64,000 nt of DNA from Lunularia cruciata (taxonomy: Eukaryota > Streptophyta > Marchantiopsida > Lunulariales > Lunulariaceae): contig OX419755.1 in the NCBI GenBank assembly GCA_948567375.1, positions 76,964,931 to 77,028,930 of the forward strand, read 5' to 3'. Below the pieces are notes generated by a model that saw only the letters and a program-made list of their open reading frames with translations, searched no databases and was not told the origin of the DNA. Within the stretch, counting starts at the first letter, position 1. Each line of letters begins with the position of its first letter. Made by a program: the position numbers and the translations under genes. This document shows positions 7,871 through 57,914 of the stretch, piece by piece.

Positions 7871-8254
7871 ATTCTGCTAGGATGGTGGTTCTTAGATCTA
7901 TATAATTTGGGATCCAAAACCTTCCATCATAGAAGGTGAGACCTTGGGTGCTGGTGATGCCTTTGGATGATTGAGCACATACAATCTATAGATCAGTTTT
8001 TGTAGCAACAAGAATCCTAGGTCAGAATTCAAGGTTTGTCTTGATTTCCACCACCAAATTGTTTGCCATTGATATTTGGGTGAATGCATCTATAAGTTGC
8101 TTCTTTCCTTCCACATATCTGATTGTCATGTTGAATTTTTGTCTCCACTTTGCCATCAAATTTGTCAAGGAGAAAGATCTTTTTGTGTCTCAAGGTAGAC
8201 TAGAGGTTTGTGGTCTATCTTTACCACAAATGATTTCTCATTTAGACAATGCTT

Positions 8255-9577: not shown

Positions 9578-9639
9578 TCAATCCACAGTGAGGTTGTAGT
9601 GCTCCATCCACGACATGCCTAAGATCACATCATAATGAA

Positions 9640-11100: not shown

Positions 11101-11509
11101 CTAATTCCTACTTCAATAAAGGGTTAGAATGATTACTTGGAAGGGTGCACAAACTATGAGGACTACCATTGAAACCTCAAAGGCTATCACTTGTTGATGA
11201 TATTCCTCACCAAAATTACAGACTACAAATCCCTAAACATCACTTTTGGTCTAATTATATAATGGATTTCTACTTGCATGTTGAAAGAATGAGGATTTGG
11301 TACATTCATATCCACAACATCATTATAGAATGTAGATTGTCAAATCCTACTCTTTGTCATATACCACCACATGTAGAATCATTGGGTTTGGTGAATTCAT
11401 CACTCTATCCATGAATTTTGCTCCAAAGTAATAAACTAAAGATACCCTCATTTTCTCACGTTGGATATACATAATGTTGATGTGGAATGGATTCAAGAAT
11501 GGGAAACTA

Positions 11510-26469: not shown

Positions 26470-26861
26470 TGAATCAATCATCACTCCGTTCTCAAAATAG
26501 AGAACGGCCCGTGTGTTTGTTTCTCTCTCCCTTTCCCCTCGAGTAGTGATCGTTGAACTGTTGAAGAAAAGAACCAACTGGAGTTGTAGTTTGGATTGAT
26601 TGATTGATTGATAGATCGAGCTTGGGATAAGTCAAGATAGAGGGACTGATTGCAATTGTATGAATCTACGAGGGAAGAGAGAGCTAGTGTTTCGTTGAAA
26701 AGAGAAGGCTGGCACACCAATTCTCAAATTCGCAACGCAGTGAAGGAGTGGGAGATCGACTTTGGAGAAACACAAGATCAGCACTCATTGATCGACATCC
26801 AGTGTGTTAGACTTGAAAAGAAAACACGAAATAGAGTTCTTCTGAATTGGAGTTTGCCAGA
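26470..26861 (+). promoter_or_regulatory. Probable 5' leader and proximal promoter of PAL
   Basis: A pyrimidine-rich run at about 26517-26540 ('tttctctctccctttcccctc') is typical of plant leaders. A perfect 8-bp hairpin (26486-26493 with 26500-26507) and a (GATT)n run at about 26594-26612 lie in the same stretch. The transcription start cannot be fixed from sequence. Confidence 0.4.
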
Positions 26862-36259: not shown

Positions 36260-37460
36260 TTAGAAAGAGCTGATGCATTAGTATGCTGATGGAGGAGCTT
36301 TAGAGCACATGACCAATAGATGAGTGTGGTTCCAAGATTTCAAGAATATTGAATAAGGAACCTACCATATATATTGTTGATGATTGAAAGGTTTGGGTTG
36401 ATAGAGTGGGAGACATCCCAATTTCTTGTAAGCTTGGTGCAAGAAGACAAAAAGGAGTCATCAAAGGAGTTCTCTACGTTCCAAAGTTGAAGTGCAACAT
36501 ATTTAGCATTGGTTAAGCAACATACAAAGGCATCCAAACCACCTACACAAAAGAATTCTGCTACATGGAGAAAGATAAAGAAATAATGATGAAGAGTATC
36601 CATGATTCAAAGCTTTACATACTTCAGATCAGAGTTGAAAAGATAATGTAACATTTCCCTAACAAACTCTATTGTTGCAAAATAATAAGGAGAGTGAGAA
36701 GCTAGAAAAGCAAAAATAGTGTCAAAAGTTAGATATTGCACTTTGACACCAAAGACTTTGGTCATCTCAAGTTTTCTTACATTAGGAAGATGGAGAGAGA
36801 AGGACAAGTAGAGGCTATATGTTTGAAACCAAAATGGCCATGTAGTCAAAAATCTTTCTACTATAATAGGTGTGTTTTAGGAAAGCAACATGGATTACCT
36901 TTTGCAAAATCTAGCAATAGTAGAGGCAAGTACAAAGTTGGCGAGTTCTTTCATGTGATGTTTGTGGTCCTATGAGTGTGAGCTCAATAGAAGGATCAAT
37001 AAATTATCTCCTTTCTAAAGATGATACTAGTGATTTTAGATTTGTATTTTTTTTGAAAGAGAAGTTACAAACTCTCGTTGCTTCAAAAAACTTCACATAT
37101 ATGTAGAAATTGAATGTGGAATGAAGATCAAGAAACTATGATATGATAGAGGAGGTGAATAAAATAGAAAGGAATTTGTTAATTTTTTACAGAGCATTGG
37201 ATTAGTCCAAGAAATTATAATGTCTAACTCTCTTTAGCACAATGGTATATCAAAGAGAAATCATAAAACAATATTTGAAGCGATAAGAAGCAGGTTGCTT
37301 TTTAGCAAGATGCCTAGAGAGTTATGGGCAGAAGTAGTGGGAGTTGCTACACATGTTCTAAATTTAGTTTTTAGTAGAGTTTTAGTGAAAACTCCTCACA
37401 AGCTCTTGCATGGAATGTAACCAACAATTGCACATTTGAGAACTTTTCGTTGCTCAATCT
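36260..37460 (+). pseudogene. Protease and integrase region of copia C1
   Basis: A protease-side segment with a 'DGGALEHMTN' word lies near 36285-36315. The GAG-pre-integrase zinc region lies at 36740-36920 ('HFDTKDFGHLKF', later 'CVLGKQHGLPF'). The integrase core runs to about 37450. It is a decayed fossil. C2 matches it from the 'GKQH' word onward (about 50530-51124). Confidence 0.75.
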
Positions 37461-37999
37461 TCGTGCAAACACCAAAGGGCCAAGAATGAAGCTTGATCCA
37501 AAGGGACAAGAGATTTCTTTCATTGGATATATTTTAGAGCCCAAAGCCTCAGATTATATGATCAAAAGAAGAACTAGATAGTCATGAATTTACAAATGTC
37601 ATGTTCAAAGAGGAGGAACTTGATCATCTATGGCTATAGATGCTAATATGAAGAGATATGACAAGCAAGCCAATGTTAGAATGAGCATTGATGAGGTAGA
37701 AGCAAAATTTTGATAAAGAGTCTCCACAAGCTTCTAAGGAGTCTACAGAGCAATCTACATAAGAATCAGCAAGTGAGACTAGCATTTGTTCACTTCAAAA
37801 AGAAAGTGAGAGCAATCACAAACTTAATTCGCAAGTGAGCTCAACTTCAACCACTCAAGATAGAGAAAATTGTAGTGGTGGGAGAATTAGATGATAATCA
37901 CAAAGACTTGGTGAGTGGGATTATGGTCAGACATCTTATGGTTGCATTGTTGCAGCAAAGATTGAAGGAGGAGATGTAAATTCAGATCAAGTTCATTTC

Positions 38000-39470
38000 A
38001 TTGGTCATTGTTCATTTCTAAGATGCAATGCAATCACCTGTGTGGGTGAATGCCATGGATGATGAATTCAAGTTATTTAAGCAAATGAAGACTTGGAAAC
38101 CAATAGCATTGCCTCAAGGGAGAAAAGTAATCAAATGTAAGTAGGTTTATCAAACCAAGCTTGATGCTAAGTGCAACATCTCAAAGCACAAGGCTAGACT
38201 TGTAGCCAAGGGATATTCTCAACTTGTTGGAATTGAAGATGAGGAGAAATTTGCTCCAATTGTTAAGTTTGATCAATCAGATATGTTTTTTCACTAGCTG
38301 CAATGGAAGACATGGAGATAACACAATTTGACATCAACACAATTTTTTTAAATTGAGATTTGCATGAGGTAATTACATGAAGTAACTACAAGTATACATA
38401 GAAGGTTGAAAGGAGAAGAGCATTTGTAAATTGCTGAAGAGTCTTTATGGCTTTAAGCAGGCCTCAAGGAATTAGAGCCAAGATTTTGATGACTTTGTGA
38501 GGTATGAGTTGCAAACAAAATTTTTTGATCCTTGTGTGTATTATGGATGTGGTGTAATACTCACTATCTTTGTAGATGATGGACCAATTTGTGGGAAAGA
38601 TGTTTCCTATATTGCTACCATGTTAGGTCACCTTGGTAGAGAGTTTGAAGTTACATATGGAGAAGCAAAATGCTATGTAGGACTTCAGGCTTTTTGTGAT
38701 AGAGAAAAACTCAAAATCAGATTGACTCAAGAAAGATATGTAGAGTCAATCATAAATAAATTCAATCTTGGAGATACATATCTAGTTGCTACTCTTGTAA
38801 ATCCATATGCTAGATTACAAGTGGAAGAAAGTGAACCAATTAGAACATCCTACCAGGAAGTAATAGGATGTCTAATGACAAGTACAGGAATTGACATAGC
38901 TTATGCTCTTAGCACAATCAGTTCTAATCCTTCATCTCAACACGGGAAAGTAGTGAAGAGAATTTTCAAGTACCTCAAATGTACTTTGGATTATGGATTA
39001 AAAATTTAGTGGAGGTTTTGATGGTGCTAATACTCTAGCTGGATACTTTGATGTTGATTTTGCGGGTGACTTAGATAATAGAAAGTCATGTAGTGGTTTC
39101 ATATTCATGATAAAGGGTGGGTCAACAACAACAATGCATTGTCATTTCTACCCCAAAGGTACATAACAACATGTTTAGTTGCAAATGAAGCAATATGGCT
39201 CTGCAGGTTACTCAAGGAACTACAATTTGGACAAGATGGTCCAACTCATATGTATAACAACAACAACAAGAGTGCTATCAAGCTGGTGTATAATCCAGAG
39301 TTTCACAAGAGAACCAAGCACATTGAGATCAAATATCACTATGTGAGAGAGCAGCAAGAGAAACAGGAAATCTATTTCAAGTACATCAACACCACAATCA
39401 GATTGTAGATATATGTACAAAATCTTTACCAAAAGATAAGTTTGGTAAGTTTAGAAATTTGATTGGAGTA
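38000..39470 (+). pseudogene. RT and RNase H region of copia C1
   Basis: The RT begins with 'WVNAMDDEFKLFKQMKTW' at about 38041-38094 and has 'HKARLVAKGYSQ' at about 38188-38223. A well-kept segment at 38497-39009 contains 'LTIFVDDGPICG' (motif C), then 'LTQERYVESIINKFNL'. RNase H follows, with 'HKRTKHIEIKYHYVRE' at about 39304-39351 and the terminal 'LPKDKFGKFRNLIG'-type word. It is a decayed fossil; the wording is typical of plant copia. Confidence 0.85.
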
Positions 39471-39495: not shown

Positions 39496-40100
39496 CGTTG
39501 AAAGTACATTTCAAATGGTAGTACATATGACATTGATATAGCATGTACCTACACTATGGTTTATGGTTTGTACCTAGCATCTAGCACCCAAGGGCAGCAC
39601 ATTAGATATGGTTAGAGTATTTAGGTTTTACCTTTGAGAGAGTAGTGGTTCATTCCATCAAGATGCTGGTGGCATAGTTAAGAAGCTTGAGTAGTAGGAT
39701 ATGTGAACAGCAGCCTTGAGAAGCAAGGCCAGACATCATGGCCAAGTTTTTCATTAGATTAGAACATGTATATTAGCATGCAGGTATTTCATTCCTCACT
39801 TCATGCGACTAGATTTGCAACAAGGGGAAAATGGAAGAAATGATTTACATACCTTTCTTTGTTCCTTGTATGTTGGAAATGCTGTGCAGATTTGCATCAG
39901 TATTTAAGACAGTTTTCAACAAACTTTTGTGCAAGACTTGTACATCTTTTTACAATCTGTTACTTGCAGCTTTTTGCACACTAACTTGGAGTGGAATGTC
40001 TTTGGCTCCATCAGGATAGTAAACTGTCAAGCAAGGAGCGAGGCGGCTATATATGCAGTCTGACATATCTATATCATCAATCTCATTCTTCAATGTTAAG
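39496..40100 (+). repeat. 3' LTR of copia C1 (right end approximate)
   Basis: It starts at 'cgttgaaagtac' directly after the polypurine stretch. The corresponding start in C2 is 'tgttgaaagtac' at 50102, so the original start was probably TGTTGAAAG. The two align over about 400 bases. The right end cannot be fixed and is set at about 40100. 40101-40243 is unassigned before the PLE repeat begins. Confidence 0.7.
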
Positions 40101-40243
40101 ATAACATGGACACATATTGAAGGGATATGCCTAGATCTTCACTGGAAGAACGTCTGAATTGAATGATCAGGGATTTTGGCAATAACCAACATTCTAACTT
40201 CAATTGTCCTAGCAATCCAGTCAGTATGTAGATATATCCCTGC

Positions 40244-41690
40244 AGTTTTTCCCTTATAATTGTATACAATCTTGCCTCTTCAAGTGTATTTTATATATTG
40301 TATAGCACTCTTTGGATTTTTATGCCATGTGGATTTTCATCGTAGACTGATGGACATGTGTCCATTGCTTATGGACATGTGGCCCACCTGGTTCTTCACT
40401 TAACATGAGGTTGCATTTGCCTCTGTCATTTGCCCTATCGCAAGTTCCCCTCATTTCTTTTCAGTCCTCTTACTTGCTTCTCTGTTCATGAGGGTTTCTC
40501 TTGCTGGGTTTGCTGGGTTGGGGTTTTTTGAGGTTTCTCCCACAGTCCTTTCTTGTTGCATCATCAACATTTTTTGCTCCCCGCTCGTGGTTTGCTGGGG
40601 TCTCTCCCACTAGTCCTTGCTTGTGAAGGATAGCAAGTTCTTTTGGCTCCCCGCTTGTCCCTTCACTTGCAGCGCTGCGCTTTCTTGCGAGGAGGTTTAG
40701 TTTGCAGGTCCCTCCCCGAGTAGCGCTGAGTTTTCTTAAGAGGATGTTTATTTTGCTGATTTTGCTGCTGTTTATTTCGTTGATGCTTCTTGTATCTCAC
40801 TACTTCTGTTTATTTTGCTGGTCCCTTCTCGTGCAGTGCTGCATTTTTCTTACAATGATGTTTATTTTGCTGATGCTCATCGTATCTCACTATTTCTGAG
40901 CGGCACTGTAGGGGAGCAACCAAGTTTTCCTTGGCACTCATGAGTTTTCAAGCAGAAACTCGTGGTGAGGGGTACTGACTCTAGCTCAGCTACTTCGGCA
41001 CTACGTGCGGCACTACGTGAGGCACATGTGTTTTCATGGAGACGTACTCTGGCCGTCTTTTGCTTCCCTCAGCTGTTTGGCTTCTCTGGACTTAGGTGTC
41101 CATAGCGCTTGCTGTGATATATCGATATCCAAATCCTCGGATGCTTTGCTCGTCTTCCCTTGTTCTCTGAGCAATTTATACTTCTAGTGCTTTGTCTCAT
41201 CCACCTTCTCTGATTTTCATTTCCTGACTCAGCTCTTCCTTGACCCGTGGTATTTACAAACTATTACTTGTCTTCTATCACCAGTTCATCTCCATCCTTT
41301 TCAGCTGTCCGTTTTGTCCTATTGTATTTATTTTTCTACTCATGTGGGAGGACTATCTCCAGTTTCTTTGCAAGCTGCATCTCAAATATGCGAGTAAACC
41401 CTAAACAATTATTTCGGCTTTCATTTGATGATGTTTCTCATATAGATATGCTAGTGTTTTAATATGTTTATTTTGATTATGCCATTGCTGCAGGTTACCT
41501 TTGCTGCATTCTAACTTCGGGATTTCATACTACTCTAGCCTTACGTGTAGCTTACCTTCCGTGCATTCTACCCTCGAGGTTTAATATTCCTTGTGTTGCG
41601 TATCATGTACATATTGTTTATCGCTCATTTGCAGTTCATGAGTTCTGGATAACCTGTTCCAAGAATGGCTTCCATTCTCGTATACCTATA
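40244..41690 (+). repeat. Left long direct repeat (pseudo-LTR) of the Penelope-like element
   Basis: It aligns end to end with 46027-47466. In the first 250 aligned bases I counted about 12 differences (about 5%), many of them TG or CA here where the right copy keeps CG. It contains an internal partial duplication (about 40725-40905) of a 'gtttattttgctgat...gtatctcac' unit. It ends 'cgtatacctatatat'. The 14 bases before it, 'atatatccctgcag', also end the right copy. Confidence 0.9.
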
Positions 41691-42771
41691 TATATCTTGC
41701 TGGCACTTTGAGACCGCAATGGAGGGGTTCGTGTTCAGACGCCTCTGTGTTTTATCAAGAAACAGATTTTTTGTTTCTTTATACATAGGCCTCACTTCAA
41801 TAGACATATTAGGATAGGTAAGCTCTGGTTCATTCATCATAGATTCTTGTGGGTGGTTGATATACAGATTTTCTAGTAACATGATTGGATTTCACTTTTT
41901 CACTATGGCATTTGTCTTCAAAACTTTCATTCCCAATTTTGATTTCATTGTATGAAGTATGGATGCTTCCCAATTCAGCTGATTCCCGTGTGAGTGTGCT
42001 CACTCTTTTTGTGGTGTTTGGTTGCATTTCTCGTTCTTTCATTTACCTGATAATTTGTTGGTTGTCTCACATAGCATATGTCTTCTCTGATTTTGACTTG
42101 CCTTTGGCACTACTTCTCTTCCCTGACCTACTTCTACCTTTATTTGTGCACCTTTATTTGTGGCACTCTATCAGGCTCTCAAACCGTGCCCCATGCTTAT
42201 TATACACTGGCATCTTTGCCCCATGCTCAATGTACACTAGCACCTTTACCTCTGGCCATGTCAGCCCTTTATGGCCCTCAAGCCTTGCTCCATTGATAAG
42301 GCCACCTCTGCCCCTTACTCTTCATGCTCTGGAATTAAATCTTTCTCAAACCACGTTCTTCCTCTGGGTTCCCTCTCTGGCTCTTGAGCCTTGCACCATA
42401 GTTATGGCCACCTCTACCCGTTACTCTTCATGTTCTGGAGTGATATTCTTCTGGAACCTTGTTCGCCTTCTCGATTTGATCCTCACACTCATTTTGCATT
42501 TCTTGCCCTCGATCACTTCCACATTAGCCTTGACCAAGTCACCAGACCTTTCTAGCCCAATAGTCACCAGGATGTTCCAGCCCACGTCACCAGGACATTC
42601 CAGTCCACATCACCAAGACGTTCTAGTCCACATCACCAGGACGTTCTAGTCCACATCAGCCTTCTTGTTCCTTGCTAACTCACCTTTCCGTCCATGATTG
42701 AGATTCTAGGTTTCTTTAAAGTCTTTCTTGTCACTCTTTTGCCTTCACCTCACCTTGTGTTTACACCCTAG
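41691..42771 (+). other. Leader region of the Penelope-like element
   Basis: Between the left repeat and the first nuclease-side coding. It is pyrimidine-rich and opens long Ser/Leu/Pro-rich frames (for example 41885-42649) that match no domain I know. Near 42570-42660 a short unit 'ccagtccacatcaccaggacgttc' type is tandemly repeated about four times with variation. Confidence 0.5.
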
Positions 42772-42990
42772 ATGAGCACCTCTCTGCCAGGCAACATCTC
42801 TTTCAGATCCATCTCTACACTTAACCTTACTCAGACTTTCCCTTTCCCTCCGGGTAGGATTGATTGGCCCACAATCAGGACACATTTGCTCACCAACCAT
42901 TTTTCTACAGAACCGGATCCCATTCTACAGCAGTTAAGGGCTTTGAGATTTTGCCATATAGGATAGGTTTTGTTTCTTCACCCCTTATAT

Positions 42991-43056
42991 GACTTGGGCG
43001 TTATCTATATCATTTATTCCTTGCATAATGGCAAATGCTATGTGGGCCAAACTGCG
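42991..43056 (+). pseudogene. GIY-YIG endonuclease signature of the Penelope-like element
   Basis: The plus strand reads 'DLGVIYIIYSLHNGKCYVGQT'-type sequence: a G-x-I-Y half, about 10 residues, then Y-V-G-Q-T. These are the two halves of the GIY-YIG nuclease core. In PLEs this nuclease nicks the target for target-primed reverse transcription. Here it lies about 1.8 kb upstream of RT motif A. Sequence just before it (42772-42966) is weakly coding. It belongs to a broken copy. Confidence 0.75.
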
Positions 43057-43092
43057 GGTTTTGCTTTTTAAAGATTCCAACAACACTGCTGC

Positions 43093-43779
43093 TTGGGAAA
43101 GTCTCTCTCTGTTCTTTGGTCTTCTACCTTTGACTTTACTCCCTTGATGGCCACAATGGACAAATTTAGGTTTCATGACTTCCGTCTATTCCCTATAGTC
43201 CAAGTACCTCCAGGTACTAGTTTTAGAGATTTTGCTAACCCAGAGGAGCTCTTTTGGATCCATCTCCTCAACTGTTGGGCTCCTCGTGGGTACAATGTTT
43301 GTGGCAGAGCATCTCACATTGATTGCCGGAGTAATATGAGAGAAACCACACTTCTCCTCTCTTCTGTCACCCCTTCTGTTTCTTCTTTCGTGACTCTTTC
43401 TCCCCTTTCAACATCCCCTATGGCCAACTTTCCCATTTCTAGAAGATATGCCTATAGAGATTACCTCTGTCAAATTTCTCATCTATTCTTCTTGTTTGAC
43501 TCTGATACCCTCTCTGACTCCTCTCTTGCACATTTTTGCATTTGTAATTTGTTGAGGATTATTCACGTCCTTAAAACTACTTCTTTAGTGGTTTTACTTA
43601 GGACTGAGTTGGATATCACTACACTCCTCAAACACCTTTTGCTCTTCCTGTCTCCATACCTCTCGCATCGCAGATCCACTCCAGACATTTGTCCCACCCT
43701 TCGCATTTTCCCTTTCACCTCTAAGGAGATAGACAAGGTCCGCTTACAAGCTTTGTTGAGAGATCCAAAATTTTTATAG
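43093..43779 (+). pseudogene. Linker region between GIY-YIG and RT of the Penelope-like element
   Basis: A long open stretch contains 'EELFWIHLLNCWAPRGYNVC' near 43243-43302, with Leu/Ser-rich sequence after it. In permuted PLEs the region between nuclease and RT carries conserved but poorly characterised sequence. I cannot assign a domain. Confidence 0.5.
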
Positions 43780-44238
43780 CTTTACCTCTAGGTACTCCTT
43801 TTACTATCCCCATTGTTGCTTTTAAGTATGGTAAAACTCTAGGCCGTTTACTCTTTAACTTTACCTCCCTTTCATGGAAATTATCACATTTTTCTTCCTA
43901 TCCTTCTCCTTGCAGTTGTCTTCAACATCCAGGTTTCATTAACCCTTCACACAGGCATGTCATTACAGCATCGCTTCACATTTTACCTTCCACCAACATT
44001 TCACTTCTCTTCTCCAGAGGAACAAAGTTTTGGATTTTGCACACCTCTCCTCCCTCTACTTTCATTGCAATTCAAACTTGTATTCATAATTTTGTTCTTC
44101 ATTACGAAGCCATATTGTGCACCACATGCATTTTTGACCAATGGAAAGTCACCATCCTACAAAAGGTTAAACTTTTACTCAATCTCCCTCCCATGCATGA
44201 TGATTTCAATTCTGTCTATCTGATTTTCCTTTCTCCAC

Positions 44239-45760
44239 ATGATCAAAAACTTCTTGCTCATTTCAAGTCCCATTTCATTATTACTTTTATGGACAAGTGT
44301 CCCAACAATTTTGTATTTGTTTGCCAACACTTTTACATTCAAACTTTACTCAACAAGCTTCATTCTCCTTCAGCAACCTATAAACTCTCATTGCTTCCTC
44401 AAAACCAACTTTTACTTTCTCACCACCGTTTCAATACCTCTCAAGGATTTTGTGCTTCCAAGAATTCTGAGAGACTCCCTTACTTCTGCTACGCTTGGAA
44501 ATTCCATAAGTCTCCCATTGCTCCTCAGTTCATTGCAGCAGGCTACTCCACTTCCTTGTCTGAACTTTCTCGTTGGCTGAGCTCATCCTTCAAAGCATTG
44601 CTACCTTCTACAAACACCCTCTGTCGGCATGAATTCTTACAAGTGGGGCTGATGGTCAACTCTAGCTGGATCTTGGACGACTCTTTTGTCATTCTTGTTT
44701 TATTTGAGCGGGTGCAAAGACTGCGCAAGAGCAGATCCTCTTCTCCCACAGATTTTGGTTTGCAACAGACTCCTGCAACCTTGGAAAAGGTTCTTTTTCA
44801 AAGTTTTGATTTCACCACCCTTTATACTAAGATCCACCTCCATGATCTCAAGACAAGATTGTCTACTCTCATCAGATCTATTTTCCATTATAGGTTCACT
44901 CTGTATAGGGAAATTGTGTTACTAGTTGAGACCTCTACACTTGAATTTAAATATAGATGGCTTAAAAACCAAAACAAATATCTCTCAATCGGCAAAACAT
45001 CTCAAATTTATGGCGGTTGATGAGGACTGTCTTATCTGTTGGATGTTATTCCTTTTTGATAACCTCTACATCACTTTTGGAAATAAGCTCTTCCGTCAAG
45101 AGATCTGGACTCCCATGGGGACACCTTGTGCTGTCTTTGTGGCTAATCTATACCTCTTCACCTATGAACTTGATTTCATTTGCAGATTGCTAGATGCCAA
45201 TGATGTCGCTCTGTTGTACTACCTGTCCCATGTTCAAAGATATGTTGATGATCTTTTGGTGGTTGGCTCGGGACTCGATCATTTTATGGATTTTATGTAT
45301 ATGGATGATGCTGCTAGAGGTGGCGGGATCTATCTCAGACTCTTGTGTGAGCTAGTTTGAACTCATTTTGGCACTCACTATGATTATCTTGACTGTCGTA
45401 TTACTCAGGACAACTTCAATATCTTTGTCTCTATCTATAATAAGAAAGAGCTGCCTCACTTTGCTCACATCAAGACAATCTTGCTTCCTCATGTTCTGTC
45501 AAACATTTCCTCTAAATGTAAACTAGGGATTATAAAATCCAAGTGTGTTTGATATAGACGGATCTGTAATTCCAAAAAGTCATACCTTTTAGCTTGTAGA
45601 AAACTTATAAATAGCTTTATCTCCGAGAATTACCCACTTCACATGATCCAGAAAATTTTTTGCTCAGTCTTACGAATGGAAAAAGATATCCATGGTTATC
45701 ATGGGCTTAGTATCTATAGAGATTTAAGAACATCTATTCTTTCTGCCAGACAGGTAGCTC
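44239..45760 (+). pseudogene. Reverse transcriptase of the Penelope-like element, broken copy
   Basis: Blocks in order: 'DKCPNNFVFVC' (44292-44324); 'WKFHKSP..PQFIAA' (44496-44540), the PLE counterpart of RT motif 2; motif A 'DFTTLYT' (44808-44828); 'NLYITFGNKLFRQ' (about 45061-45099) and motif B 'TPMGTPCAVFVANLYLFTYE' (45109-45168); motif C 'RYVDDLLVV' (45238-45264); then a thumb-side region (45361-45760) with 'LPHVLSNISSKCKLGII' and 'YRRICNSKKSYLLACRKL'. Both catalytic Asp of motif C and the motif A Asp are present. No second GIY-YIG domain is seen after it. The wording matches the permuted (Naiad-like) branch better than canonical Penelope/Poseidon. It is broken in several places. Confidence 0.85.
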
Positions 45761-46026
45761 AAGTTTGAACCCACTAGTACTTTTTACTGCAGGCTTGGAT
45801 ACCATACCTTTGATCAGGAGTTGTACTTGACTTCTTTTTTCATATATACACTATCTATGATCATTTGCACTTCAAGAGTTCTGGATAACTTGTTCCTAGA
45901 ATGGCTACTGTTCTCGTATACCTATATATACTATCTATGGTCTATCATTGGGCTTAGTATATATAGAGATCTGACAACATCTGTTTCCTTCTGCGAGGTG
46001 GGGGGCTCATTTTTGAGCCCACCATT
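45700..46026 (+). repeat. Short duplication carrying an extra copy of the repeat end
   Basis: 'gggcttagtat.tatagagat' occurs at about 45707 and again at about 45952. Between the two lies 'agttctggataact...cgtatacctatatat' (about 45876-45929), a third copy of the terminal segment of the long repeats (compare about 41640-41692 and 47418-47472). This is a local rearrangement at the junction of coding tail and right repeat. Confidence 0.75.
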
Positions 46027-47480
46027 AGTTTTTCCCTTAGAATTGTATACAATCTTGCCTCTTCAAGTGTATTTTATATATCGTATAGCACTCTTTGGAT
46101 TTTTATGCCATGTGTATTTTCATCGTAGACTGATGGACACGTGTCCACTGCTTATGGACATGTGGCACACCTGGTTCTTCACTTAACACGAGGCTGCATT
46201 TGCCTCTGTCATTTGCCCTATTGCAAGTTCACCTCATTTCTTTTCAGTCCTCTTACTTGCTTCTCTGTTCCCGAGGGTTTCTCCTGCTGGGTTTGTTGGG
46301 GTTTCACCCGCAGTCCTTTCTTGTTGCAGCATTGACATTTTTTGCTCCCCGCTCATGGTTTGCTGGGGTCTCTCTCACTAGTCCTTGCTTGTGAAGGATA
46401 GCAAGTTCTTTTGGATCCCCGCTTGTCCCTTCCCTTGCAGCACTGCGCTTCTTGTGAGGAGGTTTATTTTGCAGGTCCCTCCCCGAGCAGCGCTGAGTTT
46501 TCTTAAGAGGATGTTTATTTCGCTGATTTTGCTGCTGTTTATTTTGTTGATGCTTCCTGTATCTCACTACTTCTGTTTATTTTGCTGGTCCCTTCCCGTG
46601 CAGCGCTTCGTTTTTCTTACAATGATGTTTATTTTGCTGATGCTCATCGTATCTCACTATTTCTGAGCGGCACTGTAGGGGAGCAACCGAGTTTTCCTTG
46701 GCACTCATGAGTTTTCGAGCAGAAACTCGGTATGAGGGGTACTGACTAGCTCAGCTAGCTTCGGCACTGCGTGAGGCACTGATGAAGTCTCATGTGTTTT
46801 CATGGAGACGTACTATGGCCGTCTTCTGCTTCCCTCAGCTGTTTGGCTTCTCTGGACTCAGGTGTCCATAGCGCTTGCTGTGATATATTGATATCCAAGT
46901 CCTCGGATGCTTTGCTCATCTTCCCTTGTTCTCTGAGCGATTTATACTTCCAGTGCTTTGTCTCATCCACCTTCTCCGATTTTCGTTTCCTGACTCAGCT
47001 CTTCCTTGACCCGTGATATTTACAGACTATTACTTGTCTCTTGCCACCAGTTCATCTCCATCCTTTTCAGCTGTCCGATTCTTCCTATTGTATTTATTTT
47101 CTACTTATGTGGGAGGACTGTCTCCAGTTTCTTTGCAGGCTGCATCTCAAACATGCGAGTTGCTATCTAATGGTTTCCACGTGACAGTTATTTTGCCATT
47201 CATTCGATGACGTTTCTCATATAGATATGCTAGTGTTTCAATATGTTGATTTCTATTATGCCATTGCTGCAGGTTACCTTCGCTGCATTGTAACTTCGGG
47301 ATTTCATACTACTCTAGCCTTGCGTGTAGCTTACCTTCCGTGCATTCTACCCTCGGGGTTTAATATTACTAGTGATGCGTATCATGTACATATTGTTTAT
47401 CGCTCATTTGCACTTCAAGAGTTCTGGATAACCCGTTCCCAGAACGGCTTCCGTTTTCGTATACCTATATATCCCTGCAG
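46027..47480 (+). repeat. Right long direct repeat (pseudo-LTR) of the Penelope-like element
   Basis: This is the partner of 40244-41690. It keeps more CpG than the left copy and has 12 extra bases near 46779-46790. It ends 'cgtatacctatatatccctgcag' at about 47480; the sequence after it has no mobile-element character. Confidence 0.9.
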
Positions 47481-50101
47481 GTATGTCGAGATATCTTTTG
47501 AATTCTGTAGTCCACACTCCCTTGTGGTTGAGACTCAATGGTCTCGTCCATATATCTCCAAGTTAGTCAGCAGTTTACTGTCGCCAATACACTCCCATTT
47601 CATCTTCTGTCTTCCTTCCAACTGTCTGCTCGGGGTGATTCGTGACTGTTTGCTAAGGGTGAATCATATACAGGGTGCGTCAAAACTTGATCCGTTATGT
47701 TTCATAAGTCTCATTTCTCAACTTCCACAAATCTCCACAACTAGAACGACACGTACTACTACTTCACAACTCACACAAATCTTCACAAGTAGAACTGCAG
47801 AACGGTTCATAAACTCGGAAAGTTGTACTAGCAGTGTTGTCATACAAGGAGGTGAGAGAGCACTATTAGTTGATGCCCACGTTCTGTACATGTGCAGGTG
47901 CGGGATCTGAAAGTCTTGGCTCACAGATTGATGAACATTCGGGGTTGCTAAGGAAGGTACTATACTTACGATACACGAAACCAGTCCAGCGACCTCGAGG
48001 AAGTGGGCAAACGTCGTGGGGATGTAGAACCGATGATGTTCACAAGCAGTTTACCCAATCTTAACTAGTGCATGCTGTACTGCTGATGTGGCCTGGTAAC
48101 GAGAGAGAGTTGGTGAGAAAACTACCTGATGCTGAAACTATGCTTGCAAATATACGGAATCGAGAAGCGGGAGTTGTAGACCTTCTCTAATTCGTCTGGC
48201 CATTCGCTCACCGTTATGGATCCTCAAAGCTTTTAACCGTGCATGTGTACAATAACTGAAAGCGCTGGCAAATGATCACAGATGAACTTAACAGTGCCCC
48301 ACTTTAGCACCAAGTTGGTACCCCAAGTTGGAAAATAGACTTCATCGTAAAGCAGTCACCATTCTACATTGTCTGACGTTTCACGCGGGTGCGTCGAAGC
48401 TGGCAGTGATAATTCTGTCTTGGCAAGTAATGTTCTTGTCAAGGGTTTAGGGTTTAGGGACCTACGATGTTCATGCCTTACGATACTTCCAGAGATAAGC
48501 CTTAGACCGACCCAAAATTTGGCATTTCGACTCAGTCGACTCCCAAGTTCGCAACAAGATCTAATCGACCACATAGAAGTTTACAGGGAGTGTCAGTCCT
48601 ATGTGACGATAGATTTCCCGAACACTTCGATAAGCAATACAACAATGGAATATTAGGTTTTATTAACTCGAACTCCCTCCATGCGAACTATTACTCATGA
48701 ATACCACGTCGTACCATGTGACAGTTCGGAGTCAGTTAAGTCCTTCTGCAAACTTGGGGGTAGTTAGTCCAAATGGCAAATATAAGAGTTACATCGTCTC
48801 CTTCGATACTTCATTCAGATTTGGTCCTACTATTAGAGGAGCAATTTTAAGAACAATGTCGAGCTGGTTATGAATTTGGGTTCCAACTACACTCACGCAC
48901 CATAGAAAGGGATATTATTATCTCTTTGCGTGACTTTGAGTACAATTAAGTCTAAGTGCGAGATTAGAAATATACTTAATCGTGTTTTAAAGTTTATACT
49001 TTTATTTTATTATGCCCTAGTTTCCTTTTTACTTGATTGTACTTTACTGCTTGACGCGAGTCACAAAATGGTAGCTAGTTTCGAAATTCACTGACGAATG
49101 AATTATATGTTTAGAAATATCTATTAATATATAGAAAAAATAAAAAGTAAGACATCCTGTGGGCTCTAAATTCTCTAAATACATACATTAGGATTCGGAA
49201 CAATGATTGAGAAATTGTCGCAATGCAGTCATCTCCACAAGCGATACCTATGGAAATTTCCTTCGTTCCTGCTTACATATTCACTATGGCTGCTTCAGCT
49301 CGATAGCTGGAGTACTAGTGAGTGTTTTGATAATGTCGACCCATCAGTGTTATTTATTATGCTGCATGCCTTTTCCTGACTCTGTGCAAGATGCTATGTT
49401 GAACCAGAAGAGATTGTGGTCAAACTGGACCTCGCATGATACCATCCACAGCTGTTGCACTTGCAGAAAAATTGACTTTTGGAGTTCGCTTGACTGGGTG
49501 ACTTACATTGTGTCTAACATGATCAAGATGCTAGGCGATCTGGTTATGGTGAACGTAGCTGAAGCAATATACAATAAGAATAGATTTCAAGTTTATTGCA
49601 AGTTGAAAACTAGAAAGTTTGCGCTGCACATGACGTTGTATAGACCAAACATTGTCAACTTCTGTTTCCCAAAACCTCAAAAAGGTCTAATTCTTTGAAG
49701 ATGCTCAAAACACCTCGGTAGGTGCTCAGAAAATATGCCTGTCCCAAAACCTCTAAAAGATTGAATTTTTTGAAAATGGTTGAAACACGTTGGTAAGTGC
49801 GAAGGAAAATAAACATGTCAGTATTTTCGACTGTGTCTTCTCTTGGTTTTCTAACTTGGGAACTTGTTTTTTCAAGATAAACCTGATCTGCTGGATGGAG
49901 AAGACGTTATGGAGCCCCGAAGCTGTAAACGCAATCCAGAGCGATTTGCAGCCGTGAAACTCTAAACGAACCTCGAAACTTCATGGCCTGTCCCCGGAAC
50001 TTTGGATTTAGCACCGAAATCAAATACATCTTTACAAGCAAGTAGTTCATTTCAAACATAAGAATATTGCAATTTATCCTTTAATATACCCATGTTAACT
50101 A
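47481..50101. other. Higher-complexity stretch with no recognised gene
   Basis: Similar in character to the PAL island. An open frame from ATG 49333 to 49698 (121 residues, Cys- and Met-rich) matches nothing I recognise and is near chance length. A 75-base tandem duplication lies at its end. Nothing else is supported. Confidence 0.4.
49667..49816. repeat. Two-copy tandem repeat, 75-base period
   Basis: 'tcccaaaacctc.aaaag..' begins at 49667 and again at 49742. The copies remain alignable throughout but differ at a fair number of sites, so the duplication is old. Confidence 0.8.
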
Positions 50102-51128
50102 TGTTGAAAGTACATTTCATTTGGTATTACATGTGGCATTGATATAGCACTGCCTATACTATACTATAGGTGTTAGGGTTTATACATAGTATCCAGCACC
50201 GAATGACAACATTAGCTAAAGTTAGAGTATTTAGTTCTTACCTATGAGAGAGTAGGTCATTCATTCCATCAAGATGTTAGCAGTATAGTCAATTTGCTTG
50301 AGCAGCATTGTGGAGAAGCAAGGCCAGGCAACACGACCGTTGGCTTAGAACCGGCATACTAGTCTGCAGGTATTCCATTCCTCACTTCATGTGACTACAT
50401 TTGCAATAAGAGGAAATTGGCAAGCATACTTTATATACCTTTTTATGTTCCTTGTATGCTATAAATGCTGTACAAATTTGCATCAGTTCCTATGACAACT
50501 CTCAATCTATTGTGATGGATATGCTATAGGAAAGCAACATAGATTACCTTTTGCAAAATCTAGTGATAGTAGAGGAAGTACAAAGTTAGAGAGTTCTTTC
50601 ACATTGATATTTTTGGTCCTACAAGCATGAGTTCAATAGGAGAATAAAATATTATCTCCTTTTTAAGTTTTAGGGTTGTTTACCATTATACTAAAAGTGG
50701 TTTCAGATTTTTATTTTTCTTGAAAGAAAAGTCAAAAACTTTGTATTGCTTCAAACAACTCCACACATATATAGAAACTCAACGTGGAATGAAGATCAAG
50801 AAAGTACAATATGATAGATGAGGTGAATATGCTAGAAAAGATGTGTTGTTTTTGTACAAAGTGTTGGATTAGTCCATGAACTTATAACACCTTGCACTCT
50901 TGAGAAAAATGATATTTAGAGAGAAAGATCAAAGAATAGTGTTTGAAGTAACAAGAAGCATGTTGTAATCTGCCTAGAGAGTTGTGAGAAGAAGCAATGG
51001 GAACTGCTACACATGTTCTAAATAGAGTTTTCAGTAGAGTTTCAGAGAAAACTCCTTATGAGCTCTAGCATGGAACAAAACCAATGGTTGCACATATGAT
51101 TCACTTTTGGTTGTTTAATCTTTGCTAG
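50102..51128 (+). mobile_element. Ty1/copia fragment C2 (LTR plus integrase piece), decayed fossil
   Basis: The LTR (about 50102-50500) matches the C1 LTR from its first base. It is joined directly to an internal segment (about 50520-51124) that matches the C1 integrase region from the 'GKQH' word to the 'ELWHGTKP'-type word. Leader, gag and protease are absent between them. The internal match ends near 51124, just before the G2 target site. A broken relic. Confidence 0.75.
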
Positions 51129-52006: not shown

Positions 52007-53870
52007 ATTGGTATAATAAGGAAATATGAAACACTAGGTGGATCTTCATATGTGGCGGTAGCTTGAGGTGATAGGCCACGGCACCGATGGGACAAAGGAT
52101 GGAGAAAGGTCCACTAAAATGATATCTAAGCTTATGAGGACCAACTAACTTGAGCTTGGTGGTTGACAACCAGACTTGATCTCCCACATTGAACTCCATG
52201 TGTTGGCGGTATGCTGCTACATACTACTTACATACTCCTACATACATACTTCATACTGCTACTACATGGCGGAACTACATACTACTTTTGCCAATTTTGG
52301 GCAATCTGCAACCTGTGCTTGGCATGCTCCACCCCATGTTGGATTCTAGAAACAAAAGTGTTGATAATGTCAACCTTAGTAGCCATCGGATGGATCTTCA
52401 TCAAGCTCGAAGGTGTGAAAGGATGCTTTCCATACATGAGGAAGAACGGTGTGACATGTGTGGAGGCATTCTGTAATACTCTAAGGACAAGAGAAAAGAG
52501 AAAACACATATTACACACTCAAACATTTGATGCCCCAAAGGAGCACCTTCTCTTTATTATATAGACAAAGAGGATCTCCTCCAAGAAAGCTCCACCATAG
52601 ATTAGGCACACAGATAGGTAACATATCAGCAAGCTCCACCCTTGGATTGCTAACTTGGATAGGTGACATGTTGGTCTAGGTCCTATCTAGTTGGTCAAAC
52701 AAGCTTTGACCGAAGGGAAGCTTTTAGGGAATCTTCCTGTAAGAATCTCAGAATCACGTGGGTAAGGTACCATTGGAAAGCTCTCAATGTGAAAAACCAG
52801 AGGGGAGGGAAGGCCAGCCTATCCTTTGTTGGGGTGGGGGGAATTTGCATATTTTTGAGGCCTAATTCATTCGTTTAGGCCTCCAAAATTGCCTTCAAAG
52901 ATTTCAAGCATATTTTGGTTCCTACTCTATTAGTAGAAGTCCACTTTTGTTGATACCTCTTTCTGATCTATTTAGTCCATCATGTGTAACATCCTTTCAG
53001 ACCAAACCAATTCTCACCTTTAAATCATATGTCTAGCTATTGGTTATAAGGTTCTCAAGTCTATTTTGGTTTTTGCTCTATTAGTAGAAGTACTCTTTTG
53101 ATGATACTTCTATCTGATCTATTTTGATCATCATGTATAACATCATTCTAGATGTTACCAAACCAAATTTCACATCTAGATCATATGGCTAGCTCTTGGT
53201 ATTATGCATTCACTGAATTGTTGTAAGCAAATTCTACCAATGGGAGTAAGGTGTCCCAACTCTCTTGCTCCTCCAAAGTAAAGCCCCAAAGCATGTCCTC
53301 AATAGTGTAATTTTCCCTCTTTGTTTGTCCATTTATGGATGGTAAGCTATGGACATAGCCAATTTGGTTTTGAAGAACCCAAAGAGTGTTCTCCAAAACA
53401 AACTAGTGAATTGAGTGTCTTATCTATGATGAGTACTCGAGACAAACCATGATAGGAAAAGACTGCATCTAAGTAAATTGAGCTAGTTACGGGGCAATCA
53501 CATCCTTGGTGATAGGACATACATAAATCATTTTTTCTGAGTTGGTCGAGGTGGTCTTGGGTAATTCACAAACCAAATCTATGCTTACCTATTCCAAACA
53601 TTGTGTAGGAGTAGGGAGAGGTTGGAAGAGTCCTATGGGAGCTTGATTAGAAGCCTTATTTTGTTGACAAAGTAGGCAGCTCTAAACATATTCCATCACA
53701 ACATTGCTCAACTTGGGCCAATATTAATTGGCATTTGACTGCATCCAAGGTCTTGTCCATTCTAACATGACCTGCAATGGCAGAATCATGACATTCCACC
53801 AAGATAGTAGTTCTTAGATCCATATCATCTAGGATCCACAACATGCCATCACGTAAGGTGAGTCCTTGGG
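51954..53870 (-). pseudogene. Integrase region of G2, interrupted by a solo LTR
   Basis: The C-terminal part is at 51954-52471 ('EFNVGDQVWLSTTKLKLVGP'). The catalytic side is at 53207-53640 and the zinc-binding segment at about 53690-53850 ('VECHDSAIAGHVRMDKTLDAVK'). The family LTR at 52472-53206 separates them. It is a decayed fossil. Confidence 0.8.
52472..53206 (-). repeat. Solo LTR of the G1/G2 family inserted in the G2 integrase
   Basis: The left end is 'tgtaatactctaagg' and the right end 'ggtattatg'. It is flanked by the same five bases 'cattc' (52467-52471 and 53207-53211). The insertion site reads through cleanly when compared with G1 at about 7255-7270. It is 735 bp, longer than the 606-bp LTR, because a segment near 52885-53020 is partly duplicated at 53041-53175. 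No internal element sequence is present. Confidence 0.93.
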
Positions 53871-53892
53871 TGTTGGTGATGCCTTTGGATGA

Positions 53893-55418
53893 TTAAGCAC
53901 CCACAATTTGTGGATCAGTTTTTGTAGCAGCAAGAATCTTGGGCCAAAATTTAGGGTTCATCTTGATTTCCACCACCAAATTGTTTACCATCGGCATTTG
54001 GGTGAATGCATCTATGAGTTGCTTCTTGCCTTCCATATATTTGATTGTCATGTTGAATTGTTGTCTCCATTTTTCCCGCTGAATTTGTCTATGAGAAAGA
54101 TTTTTTTTGTCTTGAGGTACACTAGAGGTTTGTGGTCCTTCTCCCCTAGATAGTGCTTCCAATGCTTGGTTACAAGGACAATGGCCAGCTCTTCTCATTC
54201 ACTGGTGTGATAGTTACATTCTACAAATAACAACTTACGAGAGAAATATGCAATTGTGTGCCATCCATCCTACCATTCTTGTTGTAGGACTGCTCCTATT
54301 GCTACACCTGATGCATCTATAGCCATCTTGATTGGAAATTATGGGTCATACTATTTCAAGATTAGTGCATGCATCTTTCAACTCTTGAAAGGCCAATTCT
54401 TGTGCGGTTCCCCATATCCACCTCTTCTTATTGCCCAAAATAGTGATATTAGAGGTTGTGTAATCTTGGAGAAGTCCTTGAAAAATTGATAATAAAACCC
54501 CATAAATCCCAAGAAACTCTTGAGTTGAGTCTGATATTGTAGAACACTCTATTTTTAATGACCTCTATTTTATCTGTTAACAATTGGATACCCTCTGCAC
54601 ATACTTTATGCCCTAAGTAGTCTACTTCAGATTTACCAAACTCACACTTTGAGATTTTGGCATACAATTGATTTTTTGTAAAATCTGGAGGACTTATCAT
54701 AGATGTTGCTTGTGCTCTATCAACATCCTATTGTAGACTAAGATGTCATTGAGAAAAATGATAACAAGTTTATCCAAGTACAAAAAAATATATCATTCAT
54801 CAAAATCATGAAAGTGACTGGAGCGTTGGTGAGGCCAAACTGCATCACCAAGTACTCAAAGTGACCATACCTTGTTTGAAAGTCCATTTTGTGAATGTCT
54901 TCTTCTGCAATCTTGGTTTGGTTGTAACCGCTCCACAAATCAAGTTTAGTGAAGTGGCTTGCCCCATTGAGTTGATCAAACAAGTTATCCATGCGAGGTA
55001 AATGGATATTTGTTCTTCATCATCCCCGATAGTCAATGCATATGCGCATTGTTCCATCCTTCTTCACAAACAATACAAGAGCCTCATATGGTGATATGTT
55101 TGGTTGGATAAATCCCTTCTACAACATATCCTTGATTCAAGCCTTACACTCTTCCAACTCATGAGGTGATAGTTGATATGGGGCCTTACAAGGAGGTGTC
55201 TTCCCAGGATGTATCTCGATTTTATGATCTACTCTCCTTTTTGGTGGTAAACCTATGAGTAATTCATCTAAAAAGACATCTTGGAACTCATTGACCACAT
55301 CTTTCAATTTCTCAAGAATTTGTCCATTGTGTTGGGCACTCTGGACTTCTCTTATTAAACCTATGAAAAATCTATTTGTCTTACCAATAGATGTGGTCCT
55401 TATGACATATAGAGGCAA
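53893..55418 (-). pseudogene. RT and RNase H region of G2
   Basis: The minus strand reads the RT start 'PPKRRVDHKIEIHPGKTPP' at 55137-55418 and the palm region '[16 protein letters not shown]' at 54738-54992. The thumb word 'YAKISKCEFGKSEVDYLGH' is at about 54590-54670. RNase H remains follow, to about 53893. It is decayed. It parallels G1 8255-9577. Confidence 0.85.
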
Positions 55419-55539
55419 CTCTTGCCTTTGTGATCTTCCTTTAATCCCATAGATCTTCTATTGACTAGTTTTCACTACTTTCTTTCTCCAATCTACCATT
55501 TAGTTGTAGTGCTCCATCCATAACATACCTAAGATCACA

Positions 55540-55812
55540 TCATAACAAGCTAGTTGTATCACTTGCTTCTTGATACCCTCTTACAAAGAGTATGACCTTT
55601 CTAGGTAACAATTCAATTGTCTCTGTCTGACTATTAGGTAACTCTACTTTGTCCTTCTCATCCTTCTCTAGTTCCATCCCCAACCTTATTGCAACAAAGC
55701 AAGACAAGAAATTTTTTGTTGCCCCAAGGTCTATCAACACTCTTACCAGATTGCCTTCTAGCACTCCATTTACAACAATTAATTGTATGTTTATCTTCCT
55801 CCTTCTTTGCAC
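55540..55812 (-). pseudogene. Protease segment of G2
   Basis: 'VLIDLGATKNFLS' on the minus strand is the retropepsin active-site region, in a form where the family has Asp-Ser-Gly-Ala. 'GMELEKDEKDKVELPN' follows. It is a single open segment of a dead element, better preserved than in G1. Confidence 0.8.
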
Positions 55813-56605
55813 ACTCCTCCTCTTCTCCCTCTCTCCCTTTACTCTTCTTCACCAAGCCAATAAGGTCACAAGGTACATTTATTAGCCATCTTCATTTTCC
55901 AATGCGGTTTCCATATCTTCCTCTTCAATTTGTCTTTCCATGTGGTTTAGAGGTCACTTAATGAAGGCCAAGGGCCTTTAAGAGGACAAGCATTATAATT
56001 GATGGCTATGTGCCCAATTAGGCCACAATTGTAACATCATAGTTGTTCTACTCAAGCTCCTTCTCCCCGTGGGACTCCTTCTCTCCTTTCTTTGACCCAT
56101 CTCTGTTCTCCTTGGAGAGGTCTTGCTCCTCTATCTTGGAACATAGTGTTGCCTAATTCTATAGGAACTAGTCCACAAAAATGGTGTGTCTTGGCTCGAT
56201 AGTTTTGCATCAATGTTATTGCTTCACCTCCTCCAAGCACCCTTGCTATTCTTTGGGAGCATGCAATGGCTTCAAAAACAATACAAGGATTTTGCACCAT
56301 TATCTCTTGGCAAATCCACTCTTTTAATCCTCTCTTGAAATCCTCTCAAGAACTTTGGCTGGACTCATATTGGTTATCATAACCTATAGATCCAAATATG
56401 CCTCCACATACTCTTGTATGCTCTTCTCTACTTTAACCCCCAGAGTTTGGTTCGGGCCATTTGCACAAAATCCACAGATTGGAAATTATTGAGCAGCCCT
56501 TCTTGCATGGTTGTCCAAGTGACCTCTCTTCCTTCTACCAACAATGATCATTCCCATGCATTGTACTTTGTGAGTGCCTTATTGGTCAAGTACCAACACA
56601 CAAAC

Positions 56606-57031
56606 TGTAAAAGACCGAACCCGAGGAGAGAAATAGGAGAATGGAAACTCACATTGGGACACTTGAATGAGAGAAAACTCTGAATGCCTAGCATGAGCTT
56701 TGGCTTTGGTATTTATAGGTGGCATACAAGGCCCTTGAGAAGCTTCTCAAGAAGCTTCTTCAAGCCTCTTTCTTAGAGTGCAAGCCAAGTTAACTAGGAA
56801 GCTTCTCAAGAAGCTTCCTTCTAGAAGCCGCCTACTTGGCATGCAAGCTAAGCTAGTTGGAAGCTTCTAGAAGCTTCCTTCTAGAAGCTACTTACTTGAG
56901 GTGCAAGCTAAGCTAGCAGGGAAGCTTCCCAAGAAGCTTCCTAGATACTTCAAGAATATTCTAGGCTAATTTGTTTTATGTGCTACTTTGTAAGCCTGAC
57001 TAACTTTGTTGCTAAACTCCATATTGTTATA
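56606..57031 (-). repeat. Solo LTR-like insertion with heat-shock-element-like repeats
   Basis: A 426-bp insertion absent from G1. The ends are 'tgtaaaag' and 'gttata' (TGTAA/TTACA-type), flanked by identical 'caaac' at 56601-56605 and 57032-57036. Read on the minus strand it has a consensus TATAAAT (56711-56717). Upstream of that lie many 'gaagcttc' and 'ttctagaagcttc' blocks (56739-56758, about 56803-56825, 56860-56890, 56920-56945), which are inverted GAA/TTC units of the heat-shock-factor type. They sit in roughly 60-base tandem units with 'gcaagctaagctag'. Confidence 0.82.
56711..56717 (-). promoter_or_regulatory. TATA box of the heat-element LTR
   Basis: The minus strand reads 'cctataaatacc', a near-ideal plant TATA box. 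The nearest GAA/TTC pair (56739-56746) lies about 22 bases upstream on that strand. No intact coding follows it. Confidence 0.6.
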
Positions 57032-57616
57032 CAAACACACTTGCAAAATGATCAATGATCTCCATTGAGAACAATCAAAGGTATCAATTAATTCTTGAAA
57101 TCCAAATTTCCACTACTCCCATAGAATGTTATCTTGTGTAAGGCTTGATGTTGCATGTGTTTTTCATTTGTAGTAACAATGTGGCTTGGTTGTTGATTGG
57201 AATTGGTGTTATTGACATGCATAACTCTCCAAGTACTTTGGTTGTTGTGCTGGTTTTTGAGATGGCTCCTATTCTTGCATTACTTGTTCATTCTTGATAG
57301 CATGTATTTGATTTTGCAATTCCTCCATGGTCATCATGATTTCTTGAAACTTGTTCAACATCCACTGCATTCCCTGCATCAACTCCTACAACAACAAATC
57401 CATGATTCCTACACACGACCAATGTTCACTTGCTACTTCCTACTTCAATAGAGAGTTAGAATGATCACTCAAGAGGGTGAAAATATGGGAACTACCATTG
57501 GGACCTCAGATTCTATCACTCATTGATAATATTCTTCACCAAATTGCGGATAACAAAATCCCTAAACATCACTTTTGGTCTAACTACATAACAGATTTCT
57601 ACTTGCATGTTGAAAG

Positions 57617-57914
57617 GGTGAGGTACCATTGGGAATCTCTTAATGAGACAAAATCATACGAAGGAGAAGGCAAACCATTTGTCCTTGAAAGGGGGGGAGG
57701 TATTTTTCCATTTTTGAGGCTTAACTCATCTATTTAGACCTCCAAAATTGTCTTTAAAGTTTTCAGACTATTTTTGACTTTTGCCATATTAGTAGAAGTA
57801 CTCTTTTAATTACACCTCTGTCTGATCTACCTAGCCCATTGTACATAGCATCCTTTTAGATATTACCAAGCCAATTTTCACCTCTAGATAATATGTCTAG
57901 CTGCTTGTATTACA
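57617..57914 (-). repeat. Shortened 5' LTR of chromovirus G2
   Basis: It aligns with about 51440-51739 and ends 'cttgtattaca' at the target duplication. The rest of the LTR is absent, and leader/gag-side sequence abuts it, as in G1. Both family members have lost the same side of this LTR, to different extents. Confidence 0.8.

Follow-up and report, generated by a model that had tools for sequence, protein, structure and literature searches.

A permuted Penelope-like element with its GIY-YIG nuclease ahead of the reverse transcriptase in a marchantiopsid liverwort

Introduction

A 64,000-nucleotide stretch of the Lunularia cruciata genome (GenBank assembly GCA_948567375.1, contig OX419755.1, positions 76,964,931 to 77,028,930 of the forward strand; the window below) raises the question of what kind of Penelope-like element (PLE) carries a GIY-YIG nuclease ahead of its reverse transcriptase (RT), and in what kind of plant. 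A preliminary description of the window had claimed a permuted PLE in a gymnosperm or other seed plant. Our analysis indicates that the insertion, at 40246 to 47472 of the window, is very probably an old, inactivated copy of a multi-copy permuted PLE of the Chlamys type, with an N-terminal GIY-YIG nuclease, a CxC linker and a telomerase-like RT, in a marchantiopsid liverwort. Its membership of Chlamys rests on anatomy, on the general criteria set out below and on a tree of relatives without named PLE references.

Front-nuclease PLEs were reportedly split into Naiad and Chlamys by Craig et al. in 2021. Permuted PLEs carry a CxC motif in the linker, and their RT has an insertion in the fingers region that separates motif A from motif B. 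Chlamys elements, whose hosts include green algae, spike mosses and slime moulds, have a nuclease without the CCHH motif and no canonical hammerhead ribozyme.

Nuclease, linker and reverse transcriptase

The coding region reads on the + strand and contains the following features.

42922 to 43332, + strand: GIY-YIG endonuclease domain, with stops at 42964 and 43069 and the Y, Y, R, H, E and N positions kept
42991 to 43056, + strand: G-x-I-Y ... Y-V-G-Q-T signature, GVIYIIYSLHNGKCYVGQT
43782 to 45020, + strand: linker and first part of the RT, including motif A (44808), in frame 2
43911 to 43919, + strand: CxC motif (CSC) of the linker, CSCLQHPGFINPSHRHVITA; relatives have CxC at the equivalent place
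44998 to 45765, + strand: motifs B (about 45109) and C (45238) of the RT, with the region after them, which has stops at 45358 and 45550

Read with Q in place of the in-frame TAA at 43069, the piece at 42967 to 43776 matched the Pfam GIY-YIG family PF01541 over profile positions 2 to 34 of 78 (E 6e-5; 23.7 bits, the cut-off being 22.6). Compared with three full-length relatives, the nuclease piece gave phmmer E values of 4e-19 to 3e-12 and a BLASTP score of 69.7 bits, while the best of 500 shuffles reached 30.8 bits, so that the signature first noticed ahead of the RT stands above background. The structure predicted for the nuclease, again with the TAA read as Q, had a mean predicted local distance difference test score (pLDDT) of 66.8 and a predicted template-modelling score (pTM) of 0.41, and matches of predicted folds are among the observations made here. 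A search of PDB by sequence returned nothing relevant, one weak coat-protein match (E 0.018) being disregarded.

The RT is telomerase-like, as in PLEs generally, and the RT region gave a best E of 7.7e-93 against 5.8 billion proteins. Its motif words (A, FDFTTLYT at 44808; B, (WTP)MGTPCA at about 45109; C, YVDD at 45238) were located where the preliminary description had placed them. That description had also seen no second nuclease after the RT, and this held: 10 nuclease probes, run by tblastn against both strands of the whole window, gave three matches with E < 0.1, all inside 42922 to 43332, and Pfam found no GIY-YIG domain on nine open pieces downstream of motif C. The window therefore has the arrangement of a permuted PLE, with GIY-YIG ahead of the RT and none behind. 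The nuclease has no C-x2-C between the two halves of its signature, and the spacing of motifs A and B is 102, measured in a joined frame whose join falls inside that stretch; in relatives the spacing is 83 to 104, setting aside pattern mis-hits in P0035 and P0042. No Rfam family, hammerhead ribozyme included, reached its gathering score in the window, and a permissive scan (E up to 5) of 40000 to 47700 gave two weak matches, neither of them a hammerhead.

This copy is dead, because four stops (42964, 43069, 45358 and 45550) break its reading and the frame changes twice, near 43770, just ahead of a frame-0 stop at 43777, and near 44997. Selenocysteine has been reported in some Naiads; a selenocysteine reading of the nuclease stops is not supported here, since in the sister nucleases inspected the stop positions differ and only some copies share them.

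Structure of the insertion

The insertion consists of three units between target-site duplications.

40232 to 40245, no strand: left target-site duplication ATATATCCCTGCAG, a 14-mer at the outer end of the element
40246 to 41694, + strand: unit A, a 5'-truncated head-to-tail unit forming the first pseudo-long terminal repeat (pseudo-LTR); right end approximate
41695 to 45930, + strand: unit B, a region like a 5' untranslated region, the coding region and a short tail; ends approximate, taken from the tails that close units A and B
45932 to 47472, + strand: unit C, a second copy of the end of the open reading frame (ORF), then the second pseudo-LTR
41625 to 41694, 45861 to 45930 and 47404 to 47473, + strand: tail of about 70 nt common to units A, B and C
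47467 to 47480, no strand: right target-site duplication ATATATCCCTGCAG, its first six bases overlapping the element tail

In the window ATATATCCCTGCAG has two occurrences on the + strand, at 40232 and 47467, and none on the - strand; since six of its bases overlap the tail, the length of the duplication lies between 8 and 14 bp. Unit A and the stretch from about 46029 to 47472 share 92.7% identity over 1430 ungapped columns, with differences made up of 67 transitions and 37 transversions, and BLAST gave 90.9% over 1465 nt for unit A against the pseudo-LTR of unit C. The end of the ORF is duplicated at the start of unit C (45687 to 45785 against 45932 to 46033, 78%). These identities, the common tail and the ORF-end copy therefore define a truncated unit, a coding unit and a second truncated unit joined head to tail; such head-to-tail units with pseudo-LTRs and a common tail, here three units with one tail, are what is expected of a PLE.

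Relatives and phylogenetic placement

Full-length relatives carry the nuclease ahead of the RT, as in the window. The first RT tree was built from 78 relatives minus seven partial proteins (P0064, P0069, P0071, P0074, P0076, P0077 and P0078), and a further tree with sister loci held 29 of the 78 relatives and six of 30 sister loci, P0007 and P0010 being left out. The liverwort family grouped with 100/100 support with eight proteins that form its sister group: KP509_09G028400 (P0011) of the fern Ceratopteris richardii, annotated only as a hypothetical protein, and P0001, P0012, P0014, P0015, P0019, P0033 and P0043. These eight share 36–43% identity with the window protein, and a motif A–B spacing of 102, as in the window, was found in six of them, the six in which both motifs were found. 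P0014, P0019, P0033 and P0043 make up a second group of relatives, some of them on contigs of up to 224 kb. P0033 may come from a moss, as its combination of source databases (ncbi, jgi, ena) recurs in several PAL records that score almost the same as those of Sphagnum. No relatives were confirmed in viral and prokaryotic collections.

That the element is a Naiad is very unlikely. The rows that we take to be of Naiad type (P0005, P0008, P0009, P0036, P0044, P0045 and P0050) do share the gross domain order, a CxC linker and a related RT with the window element. They differ from it in having C-x2-C in the nuclease and a motif A–B spacing of 83–91 against 102 here, a spacing of 91 being found also in P0037, a row of the Chlamys side. 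The window RT lies among permuted PLEs whose nucleases lack C-x2-C, across a branch with 99–100 support from the Naiad-type rows, and joining it with them was rejected by an approximately unbiased (AU) test (p 0.00095) on 31 of the 78 relatives (23 and 8, with P0007 and P0010 included as Naiad-side rows). The Chlamys type agrees with the window element in its leading nuclease, CxC linker, apparently long motif A–B spacing, lack of C-x2-C, pseudo-LTRs and lack of a detected hammerhead; it differs in that the host here is a liverwort and that no ribosomal DNA (rDNA) target is seen.

Sister copies in the host genome

The host assembly (565,766,749 bases in 74 contigs) was searched in six frames with P0001 at E <= 1e-3, and 75 of 752 candidates were scored. 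At least 83 RT matches were found on 10 contigs, the window copy included, some matches being two pieces of one copy. Thirty loci were examined with about 1.5 kb on either side of the match (951–1590 bases downstream). Twenty of the 30 carry a nuclease (E <= 1e-3) ahead of the RT and on its strand; nowhere else in the 30 loci was a nuclease found up to E 0.1, and none (0/30) had one in the 951–1590 bases downstream. The best nuclease match in each of the 20 loci is 55–86% identical to that of the window. Within the matched stretches YVGQT was kept in 13 of the 20, GV(I/L)Y in 15 and both in 11, and C-x2-C was not seen in the sister nucleases inspected. A CxC motif is present in the linker of five of six sister loci scanned (L006, L007, L008, L010 and L017), the frame of L014 beginning later. 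A further copy, on contig C2, also has its nuclease first (50% identity, E 3e-28) and its RT after (41%, E 2e-98), the two being separated by some 1.9 kb of other sequence. The permuted order claimed at the outset is thus found in the window, in these sister loci and in the full-length relatives, and agrees with the RT trees.

The 12 closest pairs of copies are 95.3–98.3% identical, with L006 and L007 sharing 97.9% over 3521 nt. Because sister copies are near-identical, these comparisons point to recent transposition in this liverwort. The RT frame of L007 is open; L006 has an open frame of 825 aa over linker and RT and a nuclease with stops, and L008 has a long RT frame with one stop and no nuclease found in the upstream flank examined.

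An alternative is that this is a canonical PLE of the Dryad or Penelope type, with a C-terminal nuclease and an unrelated GIY-YIG frame placed upstream by chance or rearrangement. The Dryad nuclease is C-terminal. A 2022 review of plant elements assigns the conifer PLEs that bear a nuclease to Dryad, in the Penelope/Poseidon group (PMC9033089), and our comparison includes no named Dryad or Penelope sequence. Dryad resembles the window element in being a PLE of a land plant. This alternative is largely refuted by the sister copies, and we consider it extremely unlikely: the order recurs in 20 of 30 other loci and in full-length relatives, no C-terminal nuclease was found in the window or in the downstream bases of the sister loci, and the host is not a conifer.

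A second GIY-YIG locus of the host (L003, C73:161500-170500) has a match of 31.1 bits at C73:166343. It was rejected as a PLE copy: there was no PLE RT match (E 1e-3) within 9 kb among the top 30 rows, and nuclease probes gave no match below E 0.1 over the 9 kb around it. C73 (191 kb) is possibly the mitochondrial genome and the match an intron homing nuclease.

Host lineage

A gene outside the element bears on the identity of the host.

26835 to 29033, + strand: phenylalanine ammonia-lyase (PAL), a single open frame of 732 aa, with the gene itself placed at 26856 to 29030

We retrieved 1880 proteins at E <= 1e-200, compared the best 120 by identity and placed 39 of these 120 in a tree. Among the best 120 of the 1880 the first 16 are all liverworts, with 84% identity to Marchantia paleacea, 83% to Riccia fluitans and 81% to M. 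polymorpha; named mosses, lycophytes, hornworts, gymnosperms and ferns in the same set share about 67–70%. Four liverwort PALs (P0096, P0097, P0161 and P0182), apparently paralogues, stand at about 70%. In a quick tree of 40 rows, 18 liverwort rows and the window lie on one side of a branch (97 in the Shimodaira–Hasegawa-like approximate likelihood-ratio test, SH-aLRT), and the window PAL falls in a set of four rows with M. paleacea, M. polymorpha and R. fluitans (99). Three Calypogeia rows (Jungermanniopsida) lie outside the ten-row Marchantia–Riccia set (Marchantiopsida) that holds the window PAL. The PAL of the window falls inside the liverwort class Marchantiopsida, and the gymnosperm or seed-plant host first proposed must be given up, since seven gymnosperm PALs fall outside the liverwort side of the tree.

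Contaminant DNA or an assembly join, bringing in an element from some organism on the plant (an alga, a protist or an animal), would accord with relatives in algae (Ectocarpus among them) and protists and with the lack of names for most nearest relatives, and is scarcely credible given the at least 83 matches on 10 contigs, eight of which are over 60 Mb long or have matches beyond 50 Mb, and the single repeat family that flanks both PAL and the element in the window (7257 to 10703 and 53206 to 56605, 82.6%).

Other features of the window

Related repeat copies at 7257 to 11294 and 53206 to 57623 (82.6–83.4% identity) lie either side of PAL and the PLE. Minus-strand open frames near 7.1–8.8 kb resemble, by eye, a gypsy-like integrase and an RT/RNase H. 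A Copia-type RT fragment lies at 38476 to 39009 on the + strand (RVT_2, 34.4 bits), and the stretches 36857 to 37461 and 39497 to 39919 recur at 50103 to 51122 with 74–76% identity.

Discussion

Several observations weigh against the identification of an old Chlamys-type insertion. The window copy is unable to encode a working protein, and an open frame across both domains was found in none of six sister loci scanned. Profile searches of the window, proposed as a check in the preliminary description, put PF01541 over its cut-off and RVT_1 at 13.8 bits, below its cut-off of 29.6. A genome-wide search with PF01541 (E 0.001) returned two places, of which one is not a PLE, and missed the window copy. 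None of the eight nearest relatives showed a nuclease, their known sequence beginning only at the linker region or beyond it. In ten of the 30 sister loci the roughly 1.5 kb examined ahead of the RT match yielded no nuclease. L007 and L014, both with RT matches free of stops, belong to these ten; for L007 a stretch of about 4.9 kb upstream (L037) yielded none either, and this copy may be 5'-truncated just ahead of the linker. Finally, the flanks, inspected by eye, show no evident microsatellite or rDNA target.

By analogy with other PLEs, the element RNA and a single protein would form a complex, the nuclease would nick AT-rich DNA, and the RT would prime on the nicked target and copy the element RNA; head-to-tail joining of truncated copies would then produce the pseudo-LTRs, along with a short duplication of the target. 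It is on that analogy that nicking, priming and a single-protein product are proposed. In a study of a lizard PLE whose nuclease is C-terminal, the purified protein cuts both strands and prefers AT-rich DNA, and it starts reverse transcription at an internal position of its RNA, which matches the genomic tail (PMC11167929). This scheme accords with the tandem units and their common tail, and with a target duplication that is AT-rich at one end.

The kind of element is known, and its liverwort host lineage appears to be new as far as literature listings go. Among the titles and abstracts listed on PLEs in liverworts, bryophytes, ferns, conifers, gymnosperms and green algae, with most subscription papers outside coverage, there was no front-nuclease PLE from a liverwort or fern. 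The Chlamys group was reported in 2025 in the brown alga Ectocarpus (PMC12477816), and the 2022 review gives land plants Dryad and nuclease-less PLEs, with horizontal transfer proposed for the Dryad elements of conifers (PMC9033089).

It is conceivable, if rather doubtful, that the liverwort, fern and other copies belong to a single lineage of front-nuclease PLEs in land plants, inherited vertically since the land-plant ancestor, recently transposed here and lost in most vascular lines. The branching order, liverwort and then fern plus others, suggests vertical descent; a single named fern is too few to decide.

The element extends a little-sampled type to an early branch of land plants. Front-nuclease PLEs join a telomerase-like RT with a homing-type nuclease and so bear on the relationship between telomerase and retroelements. 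A recently active liverwort family of many copies, in a contiguous assembly and with a fern relative, provides a bryophyte point for weighing vertical descent against horizontal transfer, and the PLEs of plants need not be solely a conifer story of transfer from arthropods.
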